In this document: piece after piece, positions 1,481 through 58,136 of the stretch
How the letters are laid out: every line of letters begins with the position of its first letter
How positions within the stretch are numbered: position 1 is the first letter of the stretch
From: Bacteroidota bacterium
GTDB lineage: Bacteria > Bacteroidota > Bacteroidia > 2-12-FULL-35-15
Length of the DNA stretch: 64,000 nt
NCBI GenBank assembly: GCA_947504725.1
Contig: CANNHN010000001.1
Coordinates: 62,001 to 126,000, forward strand
Direction: 5' to 3'
Translations under genes and position numbers: made by a program
Notes under the pieces: model-generated
Told to the model about the DNA's origin: nothing
What the model saw: the letters and a program-made list of their open reading frames with translations, nothing else
Database searches by the model: none

Positions 1481-2656
1481 ATGAATTATCAAGTTAACGA
1501 AAAAGGCTATTATGGAAATTTTGGTGGAGCATTCATCCCTGAAATGTTATTCCCAAATGTAGAAGAACTTCGTGAGAAGTATTTGTCAATCATTCAAGAA
1601 AAAGATTTTCAATTGGAATTGAATGAGTTGCTTAGAGATTATGTAGGACGACCATCTCCTCTTTATTATGCAAAGAGACTGTCTGAACGATACAATACGA
1701 ATATCTATTTGAAACGTGAAGATTTAAATCATACTGGAGCGCATAAAATCAACAATACGCTCGGTCAGATATTATTAGCAAAGCGATTAGGTAGAACAAG
1801 AATAATTGCGGAGACGGGTGCTGGACAACATGGCGTTGCGACAGCTACCGTTTGCGCGTTGATGGGTTTAAAGTGTATTGTCTATATGGGGGAAGTGGAT
1901 ATCAAACGTCAGGCGCCCAATGTAGCACGCATGAAACTATTGGGTGCAGAAGTGATTCCAGCAACAAGCGGAAGCAAAACATTGAAAGATGCAACCAATG
2001 AGGCCATTCGTGATTGGATTAATAATCCTGTAGATACATATTATATTATAGGTTCTGTTGTAGGACCACATCCTTATCCAGATATGGTTGCACGTTTTCA
2101 AAGTGTAATAAGTGAAGAAATAAAAAAACAGCTACTTGAAAAAACTGGAAATGAAAATCCTGATTATGTGATTGCTTGTGTTGGTGGTGGAAGTAATGCA
2201 GCTGGTGCATTTTATCATTTTCTAGAAAATGAAAAGGTGAAATTAATTGCTGTTGAAGCAGCAGGAAAAGGAATTGACTCAGGTCATTCTGCCGCAACGA
2301 GTGTTTTAGGGAAGCCTGGAATTATACATGGCAGTAAAACATTGTTGATGCAAACCAGTGATGGCCAAATTATTGAACCGTATAGTATTTCTGCAGGATT
2401 AGATTATCCCGGTGTAGGGCCAATTCATGCGCATTTATTTGAAACGGGCAGAGCAGAGTTCGTATCTGCAACTGATGAAGAAGCATTGAAAGCTGTATTT
2501 CTATTGTGTGAATTGGAAGGAATAATTCCTGCTTTAGAAAGTGCACACGCATTGGCGTATCTTGAAAAACTAAAAGCGAAAGAAAATGAAGTAGTAGTCA
2601 TTAACTTGTCAGGAAGAGGAGATAAGGATTTAGCAACTTACATTGAAAAACTTTAA
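1481..2656 (+). CDS. trpB: Tryptophan synthase beta chain
   Basis: TrpB joins indole with serine to form tryptophan in a PLP-dependent reaction, as part of the alpha2-beta2 complex with TrpA. It has 391 residues, typical for TrpB1. The PLP lysine is Lys89 in HTGAHKIN. The glycine-rich phosphate loop CVGGGSNA is present, as is [13 protein letters not shown]. The C-terminal [12 protein letters not shown] is the conserved PLP-ring site with its serine. It follows trpF and precedes trpA by 4 bases, the classic order. There is no sign of degeneration. Confidence 0.98.
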
Positions 2657-2660
2657 CATA

Positions 2661-3452
2661 ATGAGTAAGATTAATACATTATTTCAAGATAAAAAGCAGA
2701 ATATACTTTCTGTGTATTTTACTGCTGGTTTTCCAAATTTAAATGATACCACTACGATCATTAATGAATTAGAAAAGAGTGGAGTTGATTTGATAGAAAT
2801 TGGAATGCCTTTTTCTGATCCATTAGCCGATGGGCCTACTATTCAACGAAGTAGCGAAATTGCTTTGGAAAATGGGATGACTATTAAATTATTGTTTGAG
2901 CAATTGAAAATTGTTAATTCTACTATTCCACTTGTTTTGATGGGTTATTTGAATCCTATTTTACAATATGGTGTTGAGAAATTTTGTAAAGACGCCTCAG
3001 CACTTCGGATTTCAGGTGTGATTATTCCTGATTTGCCTTTTCAAGAATATCTAGATGAATACAAAACCATTTTTGAAAAATATAATCTTAAAAATATTTT
3101 TTTAATTACTCCACAAACTTCAGAAGCTCGAATTCGGTTGATTGATGAATATACTGATGGTTTTATTTATATGGTCTCATCTGCAAGTACAACGGGAGCC
3201 AAGAATGAAATTGGGTCAGAGCAAGAACAATATTTCAAGAGAATAAAAGAAATGAATTTAAAGAATCCAACCGTGATTGGTTTTGGAATTCACAATCAAC
3301 AAACATTTTCAAAAGCCTGTGAATTTGCTAATGGTGCAATTATCGGAAGTGCATTCATCAAAGCAATTGAGACTGGTGAGGATTTGGAGAAGGATATTGG
3401 TGTATTCGTAAACACTATTTTAAAAGAGCAATTAGCACACAGAAATTCGTAA
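2661..3452 (+). CDS. trpA: Tryptophan synthase alpha chain
   Basis: TrpA cleaves indole-3-glycerol phosphate to indole and glyceraldehyde 3-phosphate, passing indole to TrpB. I chose the ATG at 2661 (263 residues); an upstream in-frame TTG lies within trpB. The catalytic residues are Glu46 in LIEIGMPFSD and Asp57 in PLADGPT. Phosphate-binding strands VIGFGI and AIIGSAF are near the end. The C-terminus (AHRNS) and the bases after the stop resemble a dispersed AATTCGT/AATCCGT repeat, so the last few residues may derive from repeat sequence. Confidence 0.97.
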   Translation: MSKINTLFQDKKQNILSVYFTAGFPNLNDTTTIINELEKSGVDLIEIGMPFSDPLADGPTIQRSSEIALENGMTIKLLFEQLKIVNSTIPLVLMGYLNPILQYGVEKFCKDASALRISGVIIPDLPFQEYLDEYKTIFEKYNLKNIFLITPQTSEARIRLIDEYTDGFIYMVSSASTTGAKNEIGSEQEQYFKRIKEMNLKNPTVIGFGIHNQQTFSKACEFANGAIIGSAFIKAIETGEDLEKDIGVFVNTILKEQLAHRNS

Positions 3453-3479
3453 AATCCGTCTTAATTCGTTATCCATATT

Positions 3480-4487
3480 ATGATTATTCAACTAGAGCAA
3501 AACATTTCACCAACAGTAAAAGAAAAAATCCTTTCTTCCATAAATACTATAGGTTACAAAACAACCGAAGTGAAAACCCAAAAAGGAATTTACTTAGTAT
3601 GTATTGGTAAAAACGAATTTGATATTCGTTTAATCGGCAGTTTAAATGGCGTTCAGGATGTTCACCGTGTTTCTGATAGCTATAAACTCGTTTCTCGTAA
3701 ATGGAAAGTAAATGCTACTGAAATTGATTTAGGTGATGGTGTTTTAATAGGTGAAAACAATTTTTCAATTATGGCTGGCCCATGTAGTATTGAAAGTGAA
3801 GAGCAAGTTGAAAAAGTTGTTAAACATTTAGTTGAAAACAATATTAAAGTAATGCGTGGTGGCGTATTTAAGCCTCGTAGTTCTCCATACGCTTTTCGTG
3901 GAATGGGAATAGATGGATTAAAAATGTTTAATCGTATTTGTCGTGCAAATGGAATAAAAATCATTACAGAAGTGATGCAAGTTTCACAAATTGCTGAAAT
4001 GATAGATTACGTAGATGTGTTTCAAGTAGGAGCAAGAAATTCGCAAAACTTTAATTTGTTAGATGAATTAGGTCGAGTAGACAAACCTGTTTTGATTAAG
4101 CGTGGGATGAGTGGAACAATTGATGAGCTATTGCAATCTGCAGAATATATTTTTTCAAATGGTAATGAAAAGCTTATGCTGTGTGAGAGAGGTATTCGTT
4201 CTTACGAAACTGCATACCGAAACACATTTGATATAAATGCCATTCCAATCTTAAAGGAAAAAACGCATTTGCCTGTAATTGCTGATCCTTCACATGGAAT
4301 TGGTATTCGAGAACATGTTCCAATGATTGCTTTAGCTGCTATGATGGCTGGTGCAGATGGTGTAATTTACGAAGTGCATGAAAAACCTGAGGAAGCTGCT
4401 AGTGATGGAGCTCAGACCTTAAATTTTGATGAATCGAAACAGCTAGTTGGTCGATTGAATGCTAATTATAGTCTGAATTTAGTTTAA
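3480..4487 (+). CDS. aroF: 3-deoxy-7-phosphoheptulonate (DAHP) synthase, type I-beta
   Basis: This enzyme condenses phosphoenolpyruvate with erythrose 4-phosphate, the first step of the shikimate pathway. It has 335 residues. An N-terminal ferredoxin/ACT-like domain (about residues 1-75, ending near VQDVHRVSDSYKL) precedes the barrel. The barrel carries IMAGPCSIES (residues 97-106) and KPRSSPYAF (131-139), and has late metal and substrate sites in IADPSHGIG and IYEVHEKPE. The N-terminal domain is the arrangement that gives feedback control by aromatic amino acids in Thermotoga-type enzymes. It sits 27 bases after trpA and probably forms part of one aromatic amino acid operon. Confidence 0.95.
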   Translation: MIIQLEQNISPTVKEKILSSINTIGYKTTEVKTQKGIYLVCIGKNEFDIRLIGSLNGVQDVHRVSDSYKLVSRKWKVNATEIDLGDGVLIGENNFSIMAGPCSIESEEQVEKVVKHLVENNIKVMRGGVFKPRSSPYAFRGMGIDGLKMFNRICRANGIKIITEVMQVSQIAEMIDYVDVFQVGARNSQNFNLLDELGRVDKPVLIKRGMSGTIDELLQSAEYIFSNGNEKLMLCERGIRSYETAYRNTFDINAIPILKEKTHLPVIADPSHGIGIREHVPMIALAAMMAGADGVIYEVHEKPEEAASDGAQTLNFDESKQLVGRLNANYSLNLV

Positions 4488-4531
4488 TTAAAGTGTTTTA
4501 GTGCGTATATTGTACTATAAAATTAATAAAT

Positions 4532-7500
4532 ATGCTACGTAAATCAATTGCCCTTTTGTCTTTTAGTTTTTGCTTCTCTTTAGTTTCCATTTCGCAAGAT
4601 TGGGTTAATAAATTGCAAGATCCAACTGTTAATTTTTATGATGTTCAAAAGTCGTTTAACGATTATTGGAAGAAGGAAGAAAAGAAAGAAAAGTTTAAAA
4701 GCTTTTTTACTTTCCGTAATAAAACCGAAAAAGAGAATGAAGGTTATGTTATGTACAAGCGTTGGGAACAACATATTGAACCTCGTGTTTATCCAAGTGG
4801 TGATAGAAGTTTGTTAAGTAATGGAAGTAAAGAAATTGAAAAATTAATTATTAATCCGACACAGAGAAGTTCTATGATGATCGGTGGAAATTGGTCAGCA
4901 ATGGGTTCGGCTGATGTACCTGCAAATGCAGGAGGAGCTGGTCGATTAAACTGCGTAGCTTTTCATCCAACAAATAATAATATCATCTGGGTAGGTGCTC
5001 CTGCTGGCGGATTATGGAAAACGACAGATGCAGGTTCTACTTGGACAACAAATACTGATCATTTACCAACACTTGGTGTTAACGACATTGCAATTGATAT
5101 AACTGATACAAATATTATGTATATCGGTACGGGCGATCAAGATGCAAGTGATACCTATGGTGTAGGTGTTTTGAAATCAACCGATGGTGGTGTTACTTGG
5201 AATATTACAGGATTAAACTGGACAACCAATCAAGGTAGAAGTGTTGGACGTGTTTTAATTAATCCGAATGATCACAACATGATTTTTGCTGCATCCAGCT
5301 CTGGTGTTTTCAGATCATTGGATGCGGGTGCAAACTGGACAAAAGTATTAGGTAGCGGAAATATTAAAGATTTAGAATTTAAACCAGGTGATCCTTCAGT
5401 TATTTATGCAGCTTCTTCTGCCGGATTTTATAAATCAATAAATACTGGATTATCTTTTTCGATTGTAACGTCATCTTCTTCTGGTTTGCCATTCAGTTCA
5501 TCTGTTAGTAGAGCTGCAATTGCTGTTTCTCCATCTAATCCTGATTATGTATATGTTTTGTATTCTGCCAATCCCTCAAACAACTACAAAGGATTATATC
5601 TTTCAACAAATTCTGGAACAACATTTACATTGCAAAGCAATTCTCCAAATTTATTAGGGTATGATTACGATGGAAGTGATGGAGGTGGACAAGGTTGGTA
5701 TACACTTTCTTTAGCGGTTGCTCCTTTTGATGCGAATGAAGTGATTGTAGGTGGCGTGAATATGTGGAAATCTTATGATGGCGGAGTTAATTGGACCTGT
5801 CTTTCACATTGGTGGGGTGATGGAGGATTTCCCTATGTCCATGCTGATATCCATAACATAGCATACAGCCCCGATGGATTAAGAATTTACTCTGCAAATG
5901 ATGGTGGACTATTTGTTTCTTCAGATATTGGAAATTCTTGGCAAGATAAAAGTGATGGGTTGCGAATTGGTCAGATGTATCGTTTAGGTAATTCTGTAAC
6001 AAATTCTAATCTGGTGCTCCAAGGTTGGCAAGATAATGGTACCAGCCTTCACAATTCGGGAGTATACGAAAGAGTTCTTGGCGGTGATGGGATGGAATGT
6101 TTTATTGATTGGAGCGATCCAAATTTTATGTATGCTGAATATCAAAATGGAGGATTGCAAGGTTCTACTGATGGCGGTGGAAGTTTTGATGACCTTGTAA
6201 ATAATATAGATGAACCGGGAAGATGGATTACTCCTTGGATGCAAGACCCTATCGATCCACAAACAATTTATGCTGGTTTCGAAAATGTTTGGAAATCTAC
6301 GAATAGAGGAAATTTCTGGACTCAAATTTCTACTTTCAATTCGAGTGGATTAATTGTATTAGAAGTGTCAAAATCAAATCCACTTTATATTTATGCATCT
6401 ACATCTTCTACGGTTTATAAAACAACAGATGGAGGAGCAAATTGGACAACGGTTACTTATCCTTTGGTTGGTGGTACTGCCATCACTGCTTTAGAAGTAA
6501 GTACTACCAACCCGAATATTGTTTGGATGACCCGCTCTGGATATGTTGCTGGAACAAAAGTTTTAAAAACAATTGATGGTGGAGCAACCTGGACAAACAT
6601 TTCAGGAACTTTACCGAATATACCTGCAAATTGTGTGGTGAATCAAACAGGCACAAACGATGGAGTATATGTTGGCACCGATTTAGGAGTTTATTATATT
6701 GATAACGATTTAACTTCTTGGATGCCCTTTTCAAATGGATTGCCAAATGTAATAGTGGATGAGTTAGAAATTCATTACGGAACAAATAAATTGCGTGCAG
6801 CTACATACGGAAGAGGTTTGTGGCAATCAACTATTTTTGATCCGTTATCTAATTTGCCTTATGCAAACTTTGTTGGAGATACGCTTAGCGGTTGTCCAGG
6901 TTTCAATGTTCAGTTTTCTGATAGTACATTAAATTCTCCAATAGCATGGAGCTGGACTTTCCCAGGAGGAACACCGGCAACTTCTAATTTGCAAAATCCA
7001 ATAGTCACTTACAATACTCCGGGATTATATCATAATGTAAAGTTGATTGTAACGAATACTTTTGGAACAGATTCAATTACAAAACTTAGTTATGTTGCAG
7101 TTAGTCCTGGAACACAACCCATTGTTACATTAAATAAAAATGATACGATTTGTCTTGGGACATCTATTTTGCTTTTAGCTAGCAATGGAAGCACACATTT
7201 GTGGTATCCAACTTCTCAAACTACTTATAATATTTCGGTAGCTGTAACAAGTTCTCATTGTGTAACAGTTACTGATGTTTTCGGATGTTCTTTATCATCG
7301 GATACAATTGATATTTATGTTGCTCCCTTGCCACCGATTCCAACTATCACACTAAGCAACGATACTTTATTTTCAAGTTTTCCAACAGGAAATCAATGGT
7401 TGAATGGAGGAGTAATTATTCCAGGAGCAACGGATTCATTTTATGTTTTGCCTTGGTTTGGTTTGACAATTACATTGCAACAAATTGATAGTATCACAGG

Positions 7501-50995: not shown

Positions 50996-51107
50996 TATGT
51001 TAAGGTGGCTTGTAATATCGTTTATTTTATTGCAACGTGTTGCAAATCAATATTTTATTAATTATCAATTAAAGGACATTTCTTCCGTTAAAGCGGAATT
51101 ACTCTAT

Positions 51108-54100
51108 ATGAAGCATGTAAGGTTTCTTTTCTTATTGCTAATCACGCTTGCATTCAGCACGCTTAATGCTTCGGCTCAAACCACTTTTGGTTCGGAAGAG
51201 GAATTGAAAACGCAGGCCTCAAAATTGTTTGATGAAGACGAATTTGAAGAAGCCTATCCTTTATACTCCCAATTAACCAGTATTTATCCCAAAGATCCTA
51301 ATTACAACTATCGTTTAGGTGTCTGTATGCTATACGCTAGTGATGATAAAGAGAAGCCTATCGCTTTCCTAGAATTTGCTTCCGGTAAACCGGATGTTGA
51401 GAAAGAAGTAAATTATTATTTGGCAAAAGCCTACCATTTGAATTATCGTTTCGATGATGCAATAAAAGAATACACAAAATATAAAAATGTTGCATCTGGC
51501 GCTAAGGCTGAGAAGTTGATGGTAGAACGACAAATTGAAATGTGTATTAATGGAAAAAAATTATTGCGCAACTTAACCGATTTAGTGGTGATTGAGAAAA
51601 AAGAAATGAGTCGTATTGATTTTTATCGCTCTTATGATATTTCGGGTATTGGCGGAAAGCTTTTGGCAAAGCCTGATGAAGAGGCCTTTAAAACAGCTTT
51701 AGATAAAAAGAAAAAAGAAAAATCAATTATTTATCTAGCAACAAACAATAATCAAGTTTTCTTTTCCAGCTATGGTGATAACATGGATCAGGGGAAAGAT
51801 ATTTATATTATACGTAAACTTCCTACTGGTGAATGGAGTAAGCCTCAAACATTGGGTTATCCTGTAAATACAGAGTATGATGAAGATTTCCCGTTCCTTC
51901 ATCCAAATGGAAAAGTACTATACTTCTGTTCGAAAGGACATAATTCTATGGGTGGTTATGATATTTATAAAACCACGTTAAATGAAGAAACATACACTTG
52001 GAACAAACCTGTTAATTTAGATTTCCCAATTAATACTCCAGACGATGACGTGTTATATATAACAAATGAAGATGAAAAAGAAGCATACTTCTCTTCTGCG
52101 CGCGCTAGTAAAAGCGGAAAGACGGCTGTTTACCATATAAATGTTGAACGAAAGCCGATTGATATTGCGATTATTAAAGGTGCTGTAATAAAGAACCGTG
52201 ACGAACAAGCCATTGATGTTAAGATTACTATAAAGGATTTGGCCGACAATGTGATTCTTGGAATTTTCAACTCAAAAGCAGCCAATGGCGTTTATTTGAT
52301 AAACATACCTAATGGCGGAAAGTTTTTATTTACTGTTGAAGCTACTGGGTTTGCAACACAATCAGATGTAGTGGAAGTTCCCGTTCAGTATGTGTTTCGA
52401 CCTATGAAACAAGAAATTAGCTATGAACTTGGAACAGATAAACTGATTATTAAAAATTTATTTGATGAAGTTTTGGATGATGCTAGTTATTTGCTCGCAC
52501 TTAATTTCATAAAAGAAAAATCCAAGATGGATGTGAATGTTGGTGAGAATAATAACGTGTCTGTAAATAATGCTGTAAAAGATACTGCAAGTTCTTCTAG
52601 TGTCGCTACAAACACTTTACAAGACAATAAAATAAATGATAATTCAACAACTTCCAGTAAAAAATTAACGAATGATGATATTGTAAAGATTGGTTATTCT
52701 GATGCAGAAGATGTTGCAAAAGAAGCAAAAGATTTGAGAGAACAAGCCGATGTAGCATTGGTGTTAGCGAATCAGAAAAATGAATTAGCAATCAATAAAG
52801 GTAAAGAAGCAGAGCAACTAATGTCGGATGCATCTAAGATGTCTGATAACATTAAGAAACAAGCTACTTTGGAAGAAGCGACTTTTGCAACGAAGGAGGC
52901 CGAAGAATTAAATCAAGAAACGGTTGCTGCATTTAATCTAGCAAAGAAAATTGAATACCGAGCTGTAGCAAAAGATAAAGAAGCTGAATTGTCATTGCAA
53001 TATGCAAAAGATTTAGAAGCTGCTGTCAAATCAAAAAATACGGATCCTGCTTTATTTAGTAAACTAGAAGAGCAACAGAAAAAACTAGATGATTTAGCTG
53101 AACAAAACAACAATCCAACTTTAGCAAATAGTTTGAAGATGGATGTAGATAACAAAAAACGTGAATGGGAAAAGGCGGTTCAAACATCTGCAGACATTAA
53201 ACAAGAGATTGCTGATAATGAAGCACTAGCTGTTACTACTCAAGCAGAAGCAGATAAAGAACGAAACGCAAAAGTAAAACAAGGTTTGATTGATCAGATT
53301 ACGGGATTGAAGATGGATACTGAAGATATTAAAAAAGATTTAGCCTTAAATGAACAAAAAGTCGCTCAATTGCAAAAAGAATATAATGGTGTTGTCAATG
53401 AAACTGCTTTAGTTAGCAATGTATATGACAAAGCTAAAACAACTACAAACGAAAAAGCTGCTGCTGATGTTGCAATGATTGAAAAAGCAAAATTAGAAGC
53501 TCAAGTTAATACAATAAAAAATACAACTACGACAACTGACAATGCTGTCGCTGTGAAGACAATCGATAATGCAGTTGCTGTTAATACAACAAAATCAACA
53601 GATAATGTAGTTGTGGAAAACACAACAAAATCAACAGATAATGTTGTTGTAGATAATACAACGAAAACAACAGACAATGCTTTGGTTGATAATACAACTA
53701 AAACAACTGACAATGCTGTTGTAGACAATACAACTAAAACTGCAGATAATGCTATTGTTGATAATACGACAATTGATAATTCTTCGAATGTGAAAGTAGA
53801 TTACTCAAAAAAATATTCTGATGAAATTGCCGCGACAGATAATATTTCAAATGAGTTAGAACGTGAAAATAAAAAGGCTGAATTGTTAAAGGAATGGTCT
53901 GGATCTCTTTCTGAAGATATAGCAGCTAAGAAAGAAGAATCTAAAAACGAAAAAGATAAAACAAAGAAAAAAGAATTGAATTCTGAAATCGCTGCATTAG
54001 AAAAAGAGTTGAAAGAAAAACAAAAAACAACTTCAGCAACTTTAGCAACTGTAGAAAAACTCAATAAAGATGCTGCAGTTGCGGATAATGTATCGTCAAC

Positions 54101-57002
54101 TTCAACAGATAATGCAATTGTTGATAATTCAACAAGCACAACTAATGCCGCAGATAATACAACTTCAAATCCTACATTTAATACGAATCAGAAATATTCA
54201 GAAGATATTGCTGCCACTAACGCAATTGCAAATGAAGCAGATCGAGAAAAAGCTAAAGCAGATGTATTGATGGATTGGAGCAAAGCAATTGATGCGGATG
54301 TTGCTAAGAAAAAAATAGATATGAATGCTAGCGATGATCCTGAAATGAAAGCGTTGCTCGCTATGAAGATTAAGCAGGGCGAGGATTTGTCAAAAGAAAA
54401 ACAAAAAGAAGCAGCACAAAGTTTAGCAAGAGTTGAAAGTATTAAAAATCCTAGCCTGGTTGCAAATACTACAAAAACAAACGACAATGCAGTAGTTGAT
54501 AATACAACAAAAACAACTGATAACGCAGTTGTTAATAATACAACAAAAACAACCGACAATGCAGTAGTTGATAATACAACAAAAACAACTGACAACGCAG
54601 TAGTTGATAATACAACAAAAACAACTGATAACGCAGTGGTTGATAATACAGCAAAAACAACCGATAACGCTTTAGTAGATAATGCTTCACAAACAACAGA
54701 TTCCTCTTCGGAAATTGAAGAAAAAGGTTTTGCATATTCTTCTTCAATAGCGAATGAGCAAGCAACAAAATCAGCAGTATTGTCTAAGGAATCGGATAAT
54801 TTAGCTTCTCAATCAAATGATTTAAAATCGAAAGCCGCTTCTGAAAATGATATAACAACAAAAAATGCAATTTATGCAGAAGCCGAGGAGTTTTCAAAAC
54901 AATCTGAAGCAAAACAGTTGGAAGCGGCTAAGGTTATTGGAACTGCAAATACAAAAGAATATAACGACAATCAAAATAAACTGGATCAATTTGTTGTTCT
55001 AACTAAAGGTAATTCTGCTGACGATATTTCAATGGCTGAAATGATGAAAGATGAAGCCGTTATTTATTTTAATCGCGCTCAAAAATCAAGAGAGGCTGCT
55101 AATTCAAGTACAAGTTTCTATGACAAAGAAACTTCTTTAGAAGATGCGTATAAAAATGAAATGATAGCTCTTGAGAAACAAAAGAAAGCAACTGACATCT
55201 ATTCAAAGTATGCATCTAATGTTGTAGTAAAAACGACCGACAACGCAGTTGTAAATAATACTACAAAAACAACCGATAATGCTGTCGTGAATAATACTAC
55301 AAAGACTACTGATAATGCTGTTGTAAATAACACAACTAAAACGGCAGACAATACTGCTGTAGACAACACAACAAAGACTTCAGACAATGCTGTTGTAAAT
55401 AACACAACTAAAACGGCAGACAATACTGCTGTAGACAACACAACAAAGACTTCAGACAATGCTGTTGTAAATAACACAACTAAAACGGCAGACAATTCTG
55501 CTGTAGACAACACAACAAAGACTTCAGACAATGCTGTTGTAAATAACACAACTAAAACAGCAGACAATTCTGCTGTAGACAACACAACAAAGACTTCAGA
55601 CAATGCTGTAGTGAATAAAACTAGTAATAATAATACATCAGTATCAAGTGCAGTATTCGTTAAAACAACAGTTCCGGTTTATTCGGCTTCTAAACCAATT
55701 CCTGTAAATGAGAAATTGCCAGAAGGATTGATTTTTAAAGTTCAAATTGGTGCATTTAGAAACCCGATTCCTCAAGATTTGTTTACTGGCATGTCTCCGA
55801 TTACTGGTGAGACGACTCCTCAAGGTTTTACAAGATATACGGCAGGATTATTTACAACTTTTGTAACTGCAGATAAAGTAAAACAAGAAATAAGAGATTT
55901 AGGTTATAAGGATGCATTTGTGGTAGCATTTTTAAATGGAAAGCGTATTCCAATGATTGAAGCAATGGCAATGACAGGTGAAACAATGCCAGCCAATAAT
56001 CAAATTGTAGCAAATACAACTAGTGTTGATAATACAACAAAAACAGCAGACAATGCAGTAGCGACAAACACAGCAAATAACACAACAAACATAACAAACG
56101 CAAATACAGCAGTTCAACCAGTAACGACTCCTGAGAATACTCAAAATGTAGCTACCGTTGGTGGATTGTTTTATACAGTTCAAATTGGTGTTTATTCTCA
56201 AGTAGTTTCTTCAAGAAAGTTGTACAACATTCAGCCACTATATACTGAAGTTGCTCCGAATGGAAATTATAGATACAACACAGGAATTTATAACAATGTT
56301 GGTCGTGCAGTAGAAGCAAAAAATATGATTATTGACGTTGGAATTAAAGATGCATTTGTAACAGCTTACTTTAATGGAAAACGTATTTCTTTGCCAGAAG
56401 CAGATCTGTTAATTAAAAATGGAACTGCTACTTATTCAACTGCTCCAAACATAAATGCTTTGCCAACATTTACAGCTTCTTCTGCACCTAGAACTTCACC
56501 TGTTAGTCCGAGAACAGTTGAATCAACTCCAATAGTTAATACTCCTATACCAACACCAGTTGAAACACCAACCGCAACACCAGTTGAAACAACAACTACA
56601 GCAACTACAACAACAACACCTGCAAATACCCCTGCAACAAATATTGTTACTGCTGCTACACCCATTGTGAGTGATCAATTAAAAGCGGAAGCAACAGCTA
56701 GCAATGTGATGCAAATTGATTCTGGAATTGTTTTTAAAGTTCAAATAGGCGCATTCAAAGAAGAAGTTCCATTAGAAATTGCAAACAAATTTTTGAAGAT
56801 AGCTAAAAAAGGTGTGAAAAATTATAAAGATGCAAATGGATTAACTATTTATACGGTTGGAACTTATAAAACATATACTGAAGCTGCTTCCGTTAGAACA
56901 GAGGTTGTGAATGAAGCTGCGATTACTGATGCTTTTATAGTTGCTTATAAAGATGGAAATAAAATTACGATAGACGAAGCAAGAGCATTAATTGGTCAAT
57001 AA
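51108..57002 (+). CDS. Giant TPR/PD40/repeat/triple-SPOR envelope protein
   Basis: About 1964 residues. The signal peptide is MKHVRFLFLLL...NASAQ. In order: TPR-like helices (25-155); PD40 blades (about 195-350, for example GKVLYFCSKGHNSMGGYDIYKT); regulatory-like domain (355-445); coiled-coil (about 530-800); three linkers built from 12-residue NTTKTTDNAVVD units separated by related coiled-coil modules (from about 805 to 1505); then three SPOR domains (about 1541-1615, 1686-1760, 1873-1964), each opening with a KVQIGAF or TVQIGVY strand. SPOR domains bind peptidoglycan lacking stem peptides. The N-terminal half is homologous to the 14252 protein and to PorE. It is followed 9 bases later by clpS. 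Confidence 0.82.
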   Translation: MKHVRFLFLLLITLAFSTLNASAQTTFGSEEELKTQASKLFDEDEFEEAYPLYSQLTSIYPKDPNYNYRLGVCMLYASDDKEKPIAFLEFASGKPDVEKEVNYYLAKAYHLNYRFDDAIKEYTKYKNVASGAKAEKLMVERQIEMCINGKKLLRNLTDLVVIEKKEMSRIDFYRSYDISGIGGKLLAKPDEEAFKTALDKKKKEKSIIYLATNNNQVFFSSYGDNMDQGKDIYIIRKLPTGEWSKPQTLGYPVNTEYDEDFPFLHPNGKVLYFCSKGHNSMGGYDIYKTTLNEETYTWNKPVNLDFPINTPDDDVLYITNEDEKEAYFSSARASKSGKTAVYHINVERKPIDIAIIKGAVIKNRDEQAIDVKITIKDLADNVILGIFNSKAANGVYLINIPNGGKFLFTVEATGFATQSDVVEVPVQYVFRPMKQEISYELGTDKLIIKNLFDEVLDDASYLLALNFIKEKSKMDVNVGENNNVSVNNAVKDTASSSSVATNTLQDNKINDNSTTSSKKLTNDDIVKIGYSDAEDVAKEAKDLREQADVALVLANQKNELAINKGKEAEQLMSDASKMSDNIKKQATLEEATFATKEAEELNQETVAAFNLAKKIEYRAVAKDKEAELSLQYAKDLEAAVKSKNTDPALFSKLEEQQKKLDDLAEQNNNPTLANSLKMDVDNKKREWEKAVQTSADIKQEIADNEALAVTTQAEADKERNAKVKQGLIDQITGLKMDTEDIKKDLALNEQKVAQLQKEYNGVVNETALVSNVYDKAKTTTNEKAAADVAMIEKAKLEAQVNTIKNTTTTTDNAVAVKTIDNAVAVNTTKSTDNVVVENTTKSTDNVVVDNTTKTTDNALVDNTTKTTDNAVVDNTTKTADNAIVDNTTIDNSSNVKVDYSKKYSDEIAATDNISNELERENKKAELLKEWSGSLSEDIAAKKEESKNEKDKTKKKELNSEIAALEKELKEKQKTTSATLATVEKLNKDAAVADNVSSTSTDNAIVDNSTSTTNAADNTTSNPTFNTNQKYSEDIAATNAIANEADREKAKADVLMDWSKAIDADVAKKKIDMNASDDPEMKALLAMKIKQGEDLSKEKQKEAAQSLARVESIKNPSLVANTTKTNDNAVVDNTTKTTDNAVVNNTTKTTDNAVVDNTTKTTDNAVVDNTTKTTDNAVVDNTAKTTDNALVDNASQTTDSSSEIEEKGFAYSSSIANEQATKSAVLSKESDNLASQSNDLKSKAASENDITTKNAIYAEAEEFSKQSEAKQLEAAKVIGTANTKEYNDNQNKLDQFVVLTKGNSADDISMAEMMKDEAVIYFNRAQKSREAANSSTSFYDKETSLEDAYKNEMIALEKQKKATDIYSKYASNVVVKTTDNAVVNNTTKTTDNAVVNNTTKTTDNAVVNNTTKTADNTAVDNTTKTSDNAVVNNTTKTADNTAVDNTTKTSDNAVVNNTTKTADNSAVDNTTKTSDNAVVNNTTKTADNSAVDNTTKTSDNAVVNKTSNNNTSVSSAVFVKTTVPVYSASKPIPVNEKLPEGLIFKVQIGAFRNPIPQDLFTGMSPITGETTPQGFTRYTAGLFTTFVTADKVKQEIRDLGYKDAFVVAFLNGKRIPMIEAMAMTGETMPANNQIVANTTSVDNTTKTADNAVATNTANNTTNITNANTAVQPVTTPENTQNVATVGGLFYTVQIGVYSQVVSSRKLYNIQPLYTEVAPNGNYRYNTGIYNNVGRAVEAKNMIIDVGIKDAFVTAYFNGKRISLPEADLLIKNGTATYSTAPNINALPTFTASSAPRTSPVSPRTVESTPIVNTPIPTPVETPTATPVETTTTATTTTTPANTPATNIVTAATPIVSDQLKAEATASNVMQIDSGIVFKVQIGAFKEEVPLEIANKFLKIAKKGVKNYKDANGLTIYTVGTYKTYTEAASVRTEVVNEAAITDAFIVAYKDGNKITIDEARALIGQ
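53523..53785 (+). repeat. 36-nt tandem repeat array 1 in the giant gene
   Basis: About seven diverged 36-nt units encoding NTTKTTDNAVVD-like dodecapeptides. Units differ more than those in array 3, for example the variants NTTKSTDNVVVE and NTTKTADNAIVD. Confidence 0.75.
54469..54705 (+). repeat. 36-nt tandem repeat array 2 in the giant gene
   Basis: About six copies of the 36-nt NTTKTTDNAVVD unit, some nearly identical, between two coiled-coil modules. Confidence 0.75.
55231..55619 (+). repeat. 36/72-nt tandem repeat array 3 in the giant gene
   Basis: About eleven 36-nt units. Four copies of a 72-nt higher-order unit start at 55359, 55431, 55503 and 55575 (the last partial); the complete ones differ by only one or two bases. 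The unit encodes alternating NTTKTADN(T/S)AVD and NTTKTSDNAVVN. Near-identity suggests recent expansion. Confidence 0.85.
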
Positions 57003-57011
57003 GATAAGAAA

Positions 57012-57317
57012 ATGAACATTGAAGATTTCGATAAACAACAACACGATTTAGATACCGACTCGGACGTTTTAATTGCTCCTGAGGAAGTAGCAGTGCAAGG
57101 GAAGCAGCTTATCGTTTATAATGATGATTTTAACACATTTGATCATGTGATTGATGCGCTTATTAAAGTTTGCAAGCATGATCCAATTCAAGCCGAGCAA
57201 TGTACTTTTTTAATTCATTACAAAGGGAAGTGATCCGTAAAAAAAGGTTCTTACGAAACATTAGAACCAATGTGTACTGCTTTGTTAGAAAGAGGAATTA
57301 CTGCGGAGATAGAATAA
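57012..57317 (+). CDS. clpS: ClpS adaptor with in-frame TGA (57231-57233)
   Basis: ClpS delivers N-degron substrates to ClpAP/ClpCP. The first 73 codons encode the binding fold: IVYNDDFNTFDHVIDALIKV (pocket residues) and TFLIHYKGK (the pocket His). Next comes TGA, and the same frame then continues SVKKGSYETLEPMCTALLERGITAEIE to TAA at 57315-57317, giving about 101 residues, normal for ClpS. The continued sequence is clearly family-like, and in Bacteroidota relatives I recall Cys at the TGA site (HYKGKC). The TGA could be a nonsense mutation, sequencing error or selenocysteine codon. TGA is a normal stop for ligA and the SLC13 gene here. Without readthrough the ClpA-contacting C-terminal part is lost. 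Confidence 0.85.
57246..57268 (+). other. Hairpin shortly downstream of the clpS TGA
   Basis: GGTTCT (57246-57251) is complementary to AGAACC (57263-57268) with an 11-base loop, beginning 12 bases after the in-frame TGA. Bacterial selenocysteine elements sit in this range, but the loop lacks the familiar GGUCU-type features of E. coli and the stem may be chance. Confidence 0.35.
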
Positions 57318-57332
57318 TACAAAAATAATTTC

Positions 57333-58136
57333 ATGAAAGAGAAAATAACATTATCCGTTTTGATAATTGCACTAGTTATTGTAGCATGTCAGAAAGTGCC
57401 AATTACAGGGCGTAAACAAATGAGTTTGATTTCTGAATCAGAAATGATTGGAATGAGTTTAACAAGTTATGCTGATTTTTTATCAAAGAATCCAGCTGTT
57501 TCTGAATCAGATGCAAATGCTAATATGGTTTCAAGAATAGGCAAAGACATGCAAAAAGCGGTTGAAACTTTTATGGCTGAAAAAGGTTTGTCGACCAGAT
57601 TGGATGGTTATCAGTGGGAATTCCACATGGTTAACGAGAATATTGTAAATGCGTGGTGCATGCCTGGAGGAAAGGTTGTTGTTTATTCTGGATTATTACC
57701 TGTTACTCAAACCGAATCGGGATTAGCTTGTGTGATGGGACATGAAATTGCACATGCAGTTGCTCGACATGGTAACGAACGTATGAGTCAAGGTTTGCTC
57801 ATTCAAGTAGGTGGTGCTGCTTTGTCTGTAGCACTTTCCCAAAAACCACAACTGACTCAGGATTTATTTTTGCAATCGTATGGATTAAGTTCTCAATTGG
57901 GAATGCTGAAATATTCACGCACACATGAAAGTGAAGCAGATAAAATGGGATTGGTGTTTATGGCCATTGCTGGATATGATCCTAATGAAGCAATTGCATT
58001 TTGGGAACGAATGGAACAAGCGAGTGGAGGCAACAAGCCGCCAGAAATATTAAGTACACATCCTAGTGATGCAACTCGCATAGCTGATATAAAAGCGTTT
58101 TTGCCTGAGGCGATGAAGTATTACAAGAAGAAGTAG
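57333..58136 (+). CDS. M48-family metalloprotease lipoprotein
   Basis: This 267-residue protein has a lipobox (LVIVAC, Cys near 19) and no transmembrane helix after it, so it is probably a periplasmic outer-membrane-bound lipoprotein. The zinc motif is GHEIAHAVARHGNER, with the third ligand Glu in THESEADKMG. This matches the BepA/YcaL/LoiP type of M48 proteases that check outer-membrane protein assembly. Position in a T9SS-rich region agrees with an envelope quality role. It begins 15 bases after clpS. Confidence 0.9.
   Translation: MKEKITLSVLIIALVIVACQKVPITGRKQMSLISESEMIGMSLTSYADFLSKNPAVSESDANANMVSRIGKDMQKAVETFMAEKGLSTRLDGYQWEFHMVNENIVNAWCMPGGKVVVYSGLLPVTQTESGLACVMGHEIAHAVARHGNERMSQGLLIQVGGAALSVALSQKPQLTQDLFLQSYGLSSQLGMLKYSRTHESEADKMGLVFMAIAGYDPNEAIAFWERMEQASGGNKPPEILSTHPSDATRIADIKAFLPEAMKYYKKK

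Follow-up and report, generated by a model that had tools for sequence, protein, structure and literature searches.

The window, i.e. the whole 64,000-nucleotide stretch that was analyzed, carries clpS on its forward strand at 57012-57317. The gene opens with an ATG at 57012 and runs for 73 codons ending in HYKGK, after which an in-frame TGA (57231-57233) occupies codon 74. The same frame then carries on for 27 further codons (57234-57314; SVKKGSYETLEPMCTALLERGITAEIE) to a TAA at 57315-57317, as the sequence-only reading had described. Translated under the standard code, the listed open reading frame (57012-57233) yields 73 residues and stops before the central beta-strand of the model, and reading through the TGA yields 101 residues. 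The locus matches the Pfam ClpS family (PF02617) at 59.3 bits (cut-off 23) with one TGA inside the match, and is the sole ClpS match across the genome. The read-through protein shares family, fold, and the conserved NDD and H residues with ClpS, the adaptor that serves the N-degron (N-end rule) pathway in bacteria; it differs in that its frame is broken by the TGA at codon 74. The read-through protein is 94% identical over all 101 residues to ClpS of the nearest relative compared (G016), which means that the continuation behind the TGA is not due to chance.

The upstream neighbor of clpS encodes a long protein taken to be SPOR-type (50997-57002) and the downstream neighbor an M48-type peptidase (57333-58136), both names being putative and based on reading the sequence. 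The M48-type gene is also the downstream neighbor of clpS in G016 and in another genus member, G007, and the window clpS thus represents the orthologous locus. The putative SPOR-like protein has 2001 residues with many VDNTTKTTDNAV-form repeats, and its homolog in genome G023 likewise adjoins clpS.

The AlphaFold2 model of the read-through protein has a mean pLDDT of 81, with values of at least 90 in the core, and Foldseek matches it to solved ClpS structures from M. smegmatis, Arabidopsis, E. coli, and Caulobacter. In this model, the strand formed by residues 73-79 has only just begun when the stop is reached, and nearly all of it is lost together with helix 81-93 and strand 98-100. Judging from the model, roughly half of the folded domain would be missing from a 73-residue product, which is unlikely to be functional.

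Alignment of ClpS genes shows what the interrupted codon normally encodes. Among 133 aligned places, taken from genus, class, and named genomes with some genomes occurring twice, the codon-74 column holds TGT in 74, TGC in 56, and GCA (Ala) in 3, with no stop codon; the three Ala codons belong to more distant ClpS. Within the genus, all 31 other members covering the column (30 full-length genes and a partial copy in G021) have Cys, encoded by TGT or TGC (TGT in G016), and TGA is found neither in these 31 nor anywhere among the 133 places. The earlier expectation that relatives carry Cys here is therefore confirmed, and the alignment that had been proposed as a check reveals no TGA common to any relative. 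A CxxC-type motif was not found at this column in the aligned ClpS.

Compared with G016, clpS has 35 synonymous base differences and 4 nonsynonymous codons before the stop, and 6 synonymous base differences and 2 nonsynonymous codons after it (dN 0.05, dS 0.55). Codon 80, one of these last two, encodes Ser in three other relatives too, and the other, codon 83, varies. The codon comparison with G016 gives no sign of relaxed selection, and the 27 codons of the conserved C-terminal part show no decay. It follows that the TGA arose recently, is an error, or is tolerated because it is read through, three situations that sequence alone cannot separate.

UGA is a working stop in this organism, given that the genome encodes RF2 (prfB, 481 bits) and that prfB, on the minus strand, retains the classic autoregulatory +1 frameshift site. 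Specifically, a Shine-Dalgarno-like AGGGGG precedes CTTTGAC, whose TGA closes frame 0 while the +1 frame reads on as DIDRKLRE. TGA also terminates 16 of 219 long ORFs over 404 kb, and the conserved genes sampled contain no other internal TGA. A genome-wide code change, which had already been judged unlikely from the window, is rejected on these grounds and, from the sequence evidence, can in practice be considered excluded.

Internal stops were surveyed more broadly by comparing ORFs of relatives with about 400 kb of the same contig (C1:62001-466000), with 199 genes (67,341 codons) taken from G023, 63 (22,850 codons) from G003, and 38 (15,327 codons) from G016. Non-overlapping ORFs were chosen because shadow ORFs had dominated an initial tblastn comparison. 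In this survey, no clearly conserved gene other than clpS has an internal stop; we read the other flagged cases as start-site extensions, C-terminal variation, or shadow frames. Separately from this survey, a TAA flagged inside CysN is just its normal terminal stop. The TGA in clpS is thus a single event and not part of a pattern, and the lack of other internal stops in conserved genes indicates that the assembly is not littered with false ones.

Bacterial selenoproteins likewise have UGA where their homologs encode Cys, and the genome was searched for selenium machinery. SelB is the signature gene of the Sec-decoding trait (PMC5029168). The assembly, a 43-contig draft that is 99.6% complete, gives no match to SelA and no SelB over the cut-off, the best candidate (188.7 bits vs. 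242.25) being a 397-residue frame of EF-Tu size. No tRNA-Sec gene (selC) exceeds the cut-off either; the best score, 38.7 vs. 47, falls at a tRNA-Ser(tga) gene, and the best matches to the tRNA-Sec model are ordinary tRNAs, mostly with long variable arms. ARAGORN, run on 30 of the 31 tRNA matches, identifies one tRNA-Cys (GCA) and one tRNA-Trp (CCA), and none with a UCA anticodon. SelD is present (418 bits), and it adjoins selU/mnmH (344 bits), which explains its presence by tRNA modification to selenouridine. Both genes lie on the minus strand of contig C2 of the genome under study (G000), at ~485.4-487.4 kb (1396-2442 and 2511-3530 in the stretch examined there). With the SelD and SelU/YbbB pair of the selenouridine (SeU) trait in place and selA, selB, and tRNA-Sec missing from these searches, the genome is that of a selenouridine-only organism.

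A small hairpin follows the TGA at 57246-57268, and the initial impression that it is not a classical SECIS element holds. The 60 nt that begin at the TGA have no folding advantage over shuffles (z = -0.34), and the GGTTC...GAACC pair that forms the stem also occurs in 7 of 19 genus relatives with a Cys codon; it is a by-product of the conserved codons for GSY..LEP. Rfam matches in the clpS region all score far below their gathering thresholds. The fold, the relatives, and Rfam thus all depart from what a SECIS should be, namely a hairpin just after the UGA that is absent where Cys is encoded.

Given these results, we consider that the TGA probably represents a recent single-base nonsense mutation in this lineage, from TGT or TGC at codon 74 of clpS. 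This reading is supported by the presence of Cys codons in all 31 other genus members that cover the column, the absence of TGA from all of them, and the fact that one base change is enough. Once that change had occurred, RF2 would terminate translation at the UGA and leave a 73-residue fragment without the central beta-strand, last helix, and last strand of the ClpS fold, and this fragment should be unable to serve the Clp unfoldase as an adaptor for N-degrons. We infer from the data above that the base is real, the fragment inactive, and the event recent. The intact sequence behind the stop is as expected for a recent event, but its lack of decay is equally expected from a consensus error or from readthrough, and the continued presence of Clp_N-bearing Clp ATPases, possible partners of ClpS, also counts against loss. 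Compared with known bacterial single-codon nonsense mutations and recent pseudogenes, the case is alike in its one base change, its intact flanking frame, its absence from relatives, and its lack of recoding machinery, and no difference was detected.

A second genus member bears on this question. In G007, a clpS that is otherwise intact (within C28:800-1650) carries a TAG near codon 24, in a column where relatives mostly have Glu, and a nonsense codon is therefore found in 2 of 31 full-length clpS genes of the genus, the window gene included. This mildly favors a real mutation and weakly suggests that clpS can be lost, or may be dispensable, in the genus; the support is weak because G007 is also a draft genome. 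Four genus genomes have no ClpS match, but the neighboring M48 gene also lacks a full-length match in them, and they therefore provide no evidence of clpS loss. A separate rearrangement is seen on contig C414 of G021, where the last ~85 bases of clpS are present twice on the minus strand (3210-3293 and 5134-5220). Between the copies lie a HipB-like HTH protein (3475-3837, plus strand) and a HipA-like kinase (3837-5129, plus strand), both putative and named from their translations, and the arrangement resembles the insertion of a hipBA module at the clpS 3' end with target duplication, as an integrating element would do.

The main rival to a nonsense mutation is a consensus error of the assembly, in which case codon 74 would be TGT or TGC in the organism itself and its ClpS would be intact. 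We regard this as a serious possibility, albeit a somewhat doubtful one. Among the genomes compared, the species is represented by a single assembly, and the codon at 57231-57233 is known from its consensus sequence; the genome is a draft, and the named relatives in the genus are metagenome assemblies. The strong purifying selection seen both before and after the stop fits an intact gene, and a lone case in about 67,000 aligned codons is what a single stray error would produce. By contrast, single-base errors are rare in deep short-read assemblies, no others of the kind occur in the sample, and the nonsense codon in the clpS of G007 points away from error.

Functional readthrough of the UGA with an ordinary amino acid, e.g. 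by a near-cognate Trp or Cys tRNA, such that some full-length ClpS is made, is in our view very unlikely. The frame and the C-terminal part are fully kept and the Clp_N-bearing ATPases are retained, but a recent mutation or an error keeps the C-terminal part equally well, no UCA-anticodon suppressor tRNA is found among the genes scanned, RF2 is present with its own UGA frameshift site, and no relative shares the TGA. A low and perhaps regulated form of such readthrough, in which termination efficiency would set ClpS dosage in this lineage, is if anything slightly less credible.

Of the two readings that had been offered from the sequence, the one-base nonsense change thus stands, and selenocysteine at codon 74, inserted by SelB and tRNA-Sec, is rejected as extremely improbable: the UGA in a Cys column, SelD, and the hairpin hinted at it, but SelA, SelB, and tRNA-Sec were not found, SelD sits beside selU/mnmH, no related species has the TGA, the hairpin is not special, and Ala is tolerated at a column that shows no sign of redox activity in a protein that is not a redox enzyme. 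Most known selenoproteins are redox proteins that carry Sec at the active site (PMC1794560).

The TGA in clpS is therefore an ordinary finding, and a tempting selenoprotein lead ends here: finding UGA in a Cys column of a genome that has selD does not suffice. If the stop is real, this lineage would have lost the ClpS branch of N-degron proteolysis very recently, and G007 may possibly be on the same path, which would make a modest point about how dispensable clpS is.
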